Positions 1-52,406 of a DNA stretch of 64,000 nucleotides are shown here, in pieces. Both the position numbers and the translations under genes were made by a program. The stretch lies in assembly GCA_944391115.1 (NCBI GenBank), contig CALXSJ010000002.1, positions 1 to 64,000 of the forward strand. Reading direction: 5' to 3'. Positions within the stretch are counted from its first letter, which is position 1; every line of letters starts with the position of its first letter. The notes under the pieces are model-generated. The model did not search any database and was not told the DNA's origin. It saw only the letters and a list, made by a program, of their open reading frames with translations. Origin of the DNA: an uncultured Victivallales bacterium. Lineage in GTDB: Bacteria; Verrucomicrobiota; Lentisphaeria; Victivallales; UBA1829.

Positions 1-50
1 TGAATAAAAGATTCTCTTTTTACCAGAAATTGGAAGGGGAAAAATAAATG

Positions 51-140
<90 letters not shown>

Positions 141-21183: not shown

Positions 21184-21365
21184 GTCCGATTTATAAATTC
21201 TTTCAAAATTGAGTGAGGCGGAACGGATTTCACGGGAAGGCCTCCGTCTTGGGAAACAGAAGTGCATTTCCGTTTGCAAATCATTTTGTCCGGAGTTATC
21301 TTTAGAAAGCGCAGGGGCCGTGGAAAACAGACCGATGCGGATTTTTATGGCGGTTCAACGCCGCG

Positions 21366-21431
21366 ATGTTTTGCATCGCGGAAATTGCCTCGTGCTTTCC
21401 CGTGAATCCTGCCGCGGTCCAGCTGCGCAAG
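21366..21431 (+). repeat. Dispersed intergenic repeat, copy A
   Basis: Shares CCTGCCGCGGTCCAGCTGCG with copies at 24228 and 51362, and is also similar over the preceding 40 bases to the copy at 51320 (ATG...GCATCGC...GC...CG..CTTTCC). The trailing half (AGCTGGTCGCCGGAGGCGAAA) of the other copies is not kept here. Confidence 0.7.
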
Positions 21432-21551
21432 GAAGTCCACGATACGAGCGCGTGTCCTGGCCCTGTGCAGTTCATTGGCGGCTGTTTTGCGGGAGATCTT
21501 TGCGGAATTTCAAATAACACGGCAGTTTGCCGAGAGAAGGAGGCAGTTTTC

Positions 21552-24193: not shown

Positions 24194-24227
24194 ATTTCAT
24201 TAATAGCTTCTTCGTGCTCTCCTTCAG

Positions 24228-24271
24228 TCCTGCCGCGGTCCAGCTGCGTAAGCTGGTCGCCGGAGGCGAAA
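24228..24271 (+). repeat. Dispersed intergenic repeat, copy B
   Basis: Begins 35 bases after the Gfo/Idh stop. Nearly identical over 44 bases to copy C at 51362-51405, with one C/T change in the loop between CCAGCT and AGCTGG, so the core can form a small stem. Confidence 0.85.
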
Positions 24272-24323
24272 TTTCCGATACCCCGTGTGCTCTGCGCCGG
24301 GGTATTTCATTTTTTCTGAATGG

Positions 24324-51130: not shown

Positions 51131-51439
51131 CCCGTGCTTGAACATCCGCGTTTCCCGGAAGAGAAAGCTTCCGTTCCAAATCGGAAATCCTGCCACGGTT
51201 TGGAAGGGGACGCGGATGCGGAGCCAGGTTTTCCTTTCCGTCGTCCGGTGTCCGCCGGCTCCCATCTCCGGCGGGCATCGGATGACCTCTTTTCCGAGGG
51301 CATGCGAATCTTCGTGAGGGATGCTCCGCATCGCCAAAACGGCTTCGCGCTTTCCGGTGAGTCCTGCCGCGGTCCAGCTGCGCAAGCTGGTCGCCGGAGG
51401 CGAAACCCCCGATTCCGCGCATGCCTGCATTGCGGCAGT
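51131..51439. other. Convergent intergenic region with repeat copy C
   Basis: 309 bases between two convergent genes. It contains repeat copy C; open frames crossing it (for example 51134-51676) have no independent support. Confidence 0.6.
51320..51405 (+). repeat. Dispersed intergenic repeat, copy C (longest)
   Basis: The most complete copy. 51320-51361 resembles the left part of copy A and 51362-51405 matches copy B almost exactly. It includes the CCAGCT/AGCTGG palindrome and CGCCGGAGGCGAAA. All three copies point the same way and sit outside genes. Confidence 0.85.
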
Positions 51440-51901
51440 TTATTTTGCCTTTCCGATTTTCGCGTCGAAGTATTCCAGAAATTTCCGCGGTCCGATTCCC
51501 GGCGGAAATCCTGTTTCCCTTGCAAGAACGCGCCCGCTTGCGGCGTCCAGCACAAGCACGGTCGGATAACTGTATACGCTGTAGCGGCCGGCAAGGGATT
51601 TATTCTGAGATTCCAGCTGCTGTCCGAGCGTTCTGCCGCGGGGAAAATCCGCCTTGAACAGAATATACTTCCTTGATGCTTCCGCGATGAAGCCTCTTTT
51701 GTTCAGAACATTGCGTTCCAGATGGATGCAGGGCTGACACCAGTCCGAACCGGAAAAGACCATCATGAGCGGCATTTTTTTGGCCCGGCCTTCCTGGCGC
51801 GCGTTCTTGAAGTCGGTATTCCATGCGTCCGCGCCCGGCAGAACGGCGGACATGCAGACAAGAAGTCCCGAAATGAAGACTGTTTTCAATGCCTGGCGCA
51901 T
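51440..51901 (-). CDS. Secreted thioredoxin-fold protein
   Basis: 153 residues from MRQALKTVF, with GGAGG upstream. Signal peptide (VFISGLLVCMSAVLPGADA), then a thioredoxin fold: MMVFSGSDWCQPCIHLERNV contains the CxxC (CQPC), the cis-proline region is YPTVLVLDAASGR. It is of the DUF255/thioredoxin_7 type and probably works as a periplasmic disulfide oxidoreductase. It follows CYTH by 19 bases. Confidence 0.9.
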   Translation of the reverse strand: MRQALKTVFISGLLVCMSAVLPGADAWNTDFKNARQEGRAKKMPLMMVFSGSDWCQPCIHLERNVLNKRGFIAEASRKYILFKADFPRGRTLGQQLESQNKSLAGRYSVYSYPTVLVLDAASGRVLARETGFPPGIGPRKFLEYFDAKIGKAK

Positions 51902-51920
51902 CCCGGTTCCTCCAGACAGC

Positions 51921-52406
51921 TTATCCTGATGTTTTCCATGTGCGGTACGGATTGCCGGCAAGATGGGAGTTGCTGTACTTCATGTCGCCCGTGACTTCCA
52001 TTCCCAGCCAGGAGGGACGTTCAAAAAAAGCGGATTCCGATTCCAGTTCCAGCTCCGCAAGAACCAGTCCGCTGTTTTCTCCGAGAAATTCATCAATCTC
52101 CCAGCGGTCCGACCCGTTCATGACAATGTTTCTGTATTTTTCCACAGAAGGGCCCGCACAGAAATTGTCAATCAGTTCATTTGCGTCGGTGACCGGAATC
52201 TCATACTCATATTCGTCCCGTGAACAACCGTGAAGCGCCCCCTTGAGTGTAAGATACCCTTTCCCGCCGGCAATCCGGACCCGGAACACCCCGTGTTCCC
52301 GCTCCATAAAATGAAGATATGCCTGACGGTAAAGCGTCCGGCTGGAGACCCGGCTGCGCCAGGAGTCGTCCCTCAGGAGAAATTTGCGTTCGATTTCAGT
52401 TCCCAT
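51921..52406 (-). CDS. CYTH-domain protein (triphosphate tunnel metalloenzyme)
   Basis: 161 residues. Starts with the CYTH signature EIERKFLL (ExExK), followed by basic substrate-binding strands (FRVRIAGGKGYLTLKG, YEYEIPVTDANELI, WEIDEFLGENSGLVLAELEL). CYTH enzymes hydrolyse or cyclise nucleoside or inorganic triphosphates with Mg/Mn. Bacterial single-domain forms are often inorganic triphosphatases. It lies between a TM2 gene and the thioredoxin gene. Confidence 0.93.
   Translation of the reverse strand: MGTEIERKFLLRDDSWRSRVSSRTLYRQAYLHFMEREHGVFRVRIAGGKGYLTLKGALHGCSRDEYEYEIPVTDANELIDNFCAGPSVEKYRNIVMNGSDRWEIDEFLGENSGLVLAELELESESAFFERPSWLGMEVTGDMKYSNSHLAGNPYRTWKTSG

Follow-up and report, generated by a model that had tools for sequence, protein, structure and literature searches.

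IS200/IS605 elements insert 3' of a short target without duplicating it (PMC8612924), and in IS608 each hairpin is preceded on its 5' side by a tetranucleotide that base-pairs with the site of cleavage, as in AAAG-TTAC and GAAT-TCAA (PMC5934647). Palindrome-associated transposable elements (PATEs) of Haloquadratum are derived from IS605-type transposons (PMC3119063). A dispersed repeat in 64,000 nucleotides of an uncultured Victivallales bacterium, the stretch analysed here as the window, is with high probability a PATE-like, guide-targeted, non-autonomous IS200/IS605 element of the single-strand type, about 150 bp long, and forms a new family within a known kind of element. This identity, in preference to a REP/RAYT system, follows from its anatomy, its empty sites in relatives, the complementarity and covariation of guide and target, and the tnpA-bearing relatives with matching ends.

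Like the PATEs, the element is short and present in many copies, lacks a transposase and terminal inverted repeats, has near-terminal palindromes resembling IS605-type ends, and produces no target duplication (PMC3119063). The PATEs are haloarchaeal, whereas this element is bacterial (Lentisphaerota), both its guide and its target can be made out, with covariation among three states, and its interior consists of hairpins also found in another repeat type. With ISDra2 and IS608 it shares insertion 3' of a T-rich short target (TTGAT in ISDra2) without duplication (PMC5934647, PMC8612924), hairpin ends with a guide 5' of each, and a Y1 TnpA akin to that of its autonomous relatives, but it carries neither tnpA nor tnpB, and its targets are TTTAT and TTCAT, plus TTGAT in one congener (G003).

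Copies, anatomy and distribution

The initial annotation described three copies on one strand, and the 20-mer CCTGCCGCGGTCCAGCTGCG was indeed found exactly three times in the window, always on the plus strand, at 21408, 24229 and 51363, where shuffled sequence yields 0.03. The stem CCAGCT/AGCTGG, said to be common to two copies, is present in B (24228) as well as C (51320), but broken in copy A. That the left part is kept in A and C and the right part in B and C is also correct, the reason being loss of the left-end hairpin from B and internal divergence of A. The extent first given for copy C, 51320-51405, proved too short, as alignment with 83 other copies of the same genome places it at 51319..51444 (+). 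Its left-end hairpin lies at 51319-51335, the internal hairpin CCAGCT-GCGCA-AGCTGG at 51374..51390 (seen in the sequence and in the fold of the consensus element, and identical with the palindromic core noted initially), the right guide GATT at 51411-51414 and the terminal hexamer TTTATT at 51439-51444, all on the plus strand; in the alignment its left target hexamer and 5' flank are decayed. As a query, copy C gave 49 matches in its own genome.

Sequence and alignment also delimit the other two copies, both on the plus strand. Copy A (21344..21476) consists of a decayed target hexamer TTTATG (21344-21349), a left guide AACG (21357-21360), a left hairpin (21363-21379), a right guide GATA (21441-21444) and a terminal hexamer TTCATT (21471-21476), and has no counterpart at the corresponding place in congener G001. 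Copy B (24196..24311), with its left-end hairpin deleted, retains TTCATT on the left (24196-24201), the right guide GATA (24277-24280), a right hairpin CCCCG/CGGGG and a terminal TTCATT (24306-24311); its right end is nearly identical to that of an autonomous element in genome G020. The sole Rfam match within the window is a tRNA-Ser (GCT) gene at 49-140 (-).

In the genome as a whole (G000, a 3.66-Mb draft of 44 contigs), the core was found 100 times when up to 2 mismatches were allowed and 121 times with up to 3, and a reversed-pattern control gave 0-2; thus the genome holds many further copies, the lack of which would have pointed to a chance or recent local duplication. The congeners G001, G003 and G002 hold 83, 145 and 1 core copies, and most other sampled genomes of the family and order 0 or 1. 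Named records with the repeat are mainly from uncultured Victivallales/Lentisphaeria; the exact core also occurs in records titled Ruminiclostridium sp. (MAG RGIG9238; L070 and L109), possibly through binning contamination or transfer. No exact core match was found in viral contigs, and viral spread as the origin is not supported. Some contigs of G000 (e.g. C23, C24, C35, C37, C43) terminate in or near these repeats, so that the counts given are minimum values and the assembly may lack a mobilising tnpA. Contig C1 has a positive GC skew along its whole length and contains few element copies.

Eighty-four own copies were read as stretches and sorted by simple patterns, which misclassed at least one element copy (C1:243409): about 50 have one or both ends of the ~150-bp element (31 have both), about 30 are of a second, mosaic type with only the interior in common, and four are of neither. 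Nineteen copies ("masters") are nearly identical and, set in unique flanks, end exactly at TTYATT. The element runs from a left hairpin through three internal hairpins to a right hairpin and a terminal TTYATT. Its consensus begins with TTYATT-(Y)CAAAAAAATTTAGGTT-[RATA]-CC-GCGATGC TCT GCATCGC, continues after the left hairpin and a gap with GCAGGACT CTC AGTCCTGC - CGCGGT - CCAGCT GCGTA AGCTGG - TCGCC GGA GGCGA, and then ends with AATCCCC-[RATA]-CCGCGC ATG CTTG CAT CGCGG-TAA-TTYATT. Each isolated end forms a hairpin when folded alone, and the whole element folds well beyond shuffled sequences (z -6.1 as DNA, z -4.2 as RNA of the other strand). It contains no genes; a subterminal hairpin stands at both ends on the same strand, terminal inverted repeats are absent, and some copies form direct tandems at ~147-154 bp.

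The second repeat type is intergenic, 300-700 bp long, and made of numerous short, small-looped hairpins one after another (L003, L016, L161, L171, L185 and L196 in G000; e.g. C1:80384, C4:10254, C5:132241). It shares an interior of ~62 bp with the element, has no guide/hexamer ends, and shows compensatory-looking variation in its stem arms.

Autonomous relatives and the transposase

Elements carrying tnpA and having matching ends occur in other genera of the same family (G020, G045, G049). The one in G020:C42 consists of TTTATT, the left-end guide AATA, a 7-bp hairpin (loop TCT), a 146-aa TnpA, the right-end guide GATA, a CCCCG..CGGGG hairpin and TTCATT; the ends in G045 and G049 agree with it, and G020:C98 is a slightly decayed copy. 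Furthermore, G024 has a tnpA fragment together with a right end resembling type I, TGCATCGCGGTAGTTCATT, which one type I copy matches exactly, and G002:C4 has a decayed tnpA of the G020 kind. Autonomous and non-autonomous elements have the same hairpin architecture. The G020 TnpA matches Pfam Y1_Tnp at 115 bits and, among NCBIfam models, the IS200/IS605 equivalog at 120.6 bits (cut-off 55) and the REP transposase at 26.7 (cut-off 80). Its PDB matches are 2fyx (best) and 2xm3/2xma, which we take to be ISDra2 TnpA, although the PDB names given read only "transposase".

Searches with PF01797 and the G020 TnpA found no G020-type tnpA in G000, G001 or G003, whose drafts are ~95% complete, with contigs that frequently stop in repeats; we therefore infer the enzyme behind the recent copies, and it may have been lost or left unassembled. 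An IS200-like element with CCACCGGCTYAGCCGGTGG ends (G001, G002, G012) was ruled out as the source by its different hairpins; it also accounts for the intact 163-aa PF01797 frame in G002:C2 and for the G001:C3 fragment. In G000, PF01797 revealed a broken relict only, a Y1 (IS200-type) transposase sequence with stops at L277 1917-2363 (G000:C35:25416-25862), downstream of a tRNA-like sequence. Derivation of the interior from a TnpB omega-RNA was rejected, no PF07282 being present in the seven genomes tested.

The repeat had been proposed to be either REP-like or a non-autonomous mobile element. The second proposal is supported: the copies are dispersed and nearly identical, relatives have empty sites, and related autonomous elements have the same ends. 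The REP-like, RAYT-linked part is not supported. REP/REPIN elements moved by RAYT (TnpA-REP) are likewise palindromes scattered in high number outside genes, bear a guide-like motif on the 5' side of the hairpin and rely on Y1-family chemistry (PMC8266576), but REPs measure 20-40 bp, and this element differs in size and anatomy, with ~150 bp, two unlike end hairpins and a defined target. Its guide is NATA and not GTAG; its repeats are direct tandems, with none of the pairs in opposite orientation anticipated at first; no RAYT was found in G000, G001 or G003, and the related TnpA scores as an IS200 equivalog and stays under the REP cut-off. An origin by RAYT is thus very improbable.

Insertion sites and guide-target pairing

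Since G001 is ~92-94% identical to G000 over many aligned stretches, the sites before insertion can be read. At C34:18591, comparison of G000 with G001/G003 gave the empty site GCTTCATTCGAATTC and the filled arrangement GCTTCATT-element-TTTATTCGAATTC, in which TTCATT has become TTCATT...TTTATT, and C9:106940 shows the same pattern. The same comparison at C10:44112 found TTTATT in the empty site and on both sides when filled, and at C1:243409 TTCATT likewise. One hexamer is present before insertion and two after, the left being the target's and the right borne by the element; therefore the element inserts 3' of a single TTYATT hexamer without target duplication.

The guide 5' of each end hairpin is RATA or CATA, and when the IS608 linear and cross rule is applied to RATA and T[TYAT]|T, all four of four positions are complementary. 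Among the 19 masters of G000, those with a GATA guide have TTCATT as the left hexamer nine times and TTTATT and TTGATT once each, whereas all eight with AATA have TTTATT (Fisher p 0.0007 for the guide-hexamer association). Of 54 solo left ends from all genomes, 41 have a guide base 1 that complements target base 3, CATA at TTGATT included; permutation leads one to expect 19.7, and 0 of 20,000 permutations reached the observed count. The matches fall into three covarying states (A-T 22, C-G 10, G-C 9), and the remaining 13 of the 54 depart from the rule. When left ends were collapsed to distinct linker/guide/hexamer combinations, the excess was weak (13/23 against 7.8 expected, p 0.02), but each insertion is nevertheless a separate event. 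At right ends the tendency is the same (A-T 33, G-C 26, G-T 14, others 5) but is not significant after identical ends are collapsed (p 0.21), and junctions within tandems do not share the complementarity (6/14). In conclusion, guide and target covary in this element.

A short hairpin stands at each end, with a NATA tetranucleotide guide just before it. In the probable mechanism the single-stranded guide would pair with T[TNAT]|T, the cleavage site next to it (g1:c-3, g2:c-4, g3:c-2, g4:c-1), a Y1 (HUH) transposase acting in trans would excise the strand, and the strand would be reinserted 3' of a TTNAT|T target picked by the left guide. We infer in this scheme where exactly the hexamer is cut, that the intermediate is a single-stranded circle, that such a TnpA mobilises the element in trans, and that the lagging strand is used. 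A circular element recombining at the 6-bp TTYATT site through a tyrosine recombinase, or as an integron-like cassette, would equally give a single hexamer when empty, two when filled, and direct tandem arrays, but leaves unexplained why the base in NATA varies with that of the target, why the motifs stand 5' of a hairpin each, and why tnpA-bearing elements have the same ends; such recombination is very improbable.

Insertion at gene ends

On the opposite strand the hexamer reads AATRAA and holds the stop TRA and, when the variable base is G, the start ATG; insertion at a stop or a stop/start overlap is therefore tolerated, as the terminus of the element would restore the stop and the start would be retained. 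Of 42 copies, 20 have a right-hand hexamer in which an open frame of 100 codons or more exactly ends, where 72 of 483 AATRAA sites (15%) in 452 kb sampled end such frames (binomial p 5e-7). Within the window, a thioredoxin-like protein gene (51440..51961, minus strand; Pfam Thioredoxin_7, E 2e-10), a 179-codon open frame, ends in the terminal hexamer of copy C, inside which lies its stop codon (51440-51442, minus strand). The empty site at C34 is an overlapping stop/start; after insertion, by inspection of the frames and an open-frame check, the upstream gene stops at the element's own TAA and the ATG of the downstream gene is intact. Selection against insertions within genes suffices to account for the excess at stop codons, and a role of the element in mRNA 3' ends is possible. 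That the repeat is instead a conserved structured RNA or transcription terminator, duplicated and selected for a 3' untranslated role, agrees with its strong folding and with the 20 of 42 copies lying directly after stop codons, but it has no Rfam match, and its sharply defined ends, together with the empty sites and the target hexamer, show transposition, so that this explanation has hardly any likelihood.

For the PATE-like element, chances are even that it has been re-aimed several times in one genus (TTTAT, TTCAT, TTGAT) through single-base changes of the guide, with AATRAA-type targets making stop codons and stop/start overlaps self-repairing sites, a natural case of guide-programmed insertion into operon junctions. 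Guide-target pairing was already known from IS608, ISDra2 and engineered guides; here it is recorded as covariation across many natural insertions in close genomes, in which subfamilies one guide base apart choose targets differing at the paired base. The copies thus provide a natural data set on target change by such elements and an example of a mobile element landing harmlessly at gene ends, and they help to explain the repeat-associated breaks in draft genomes of the genus.
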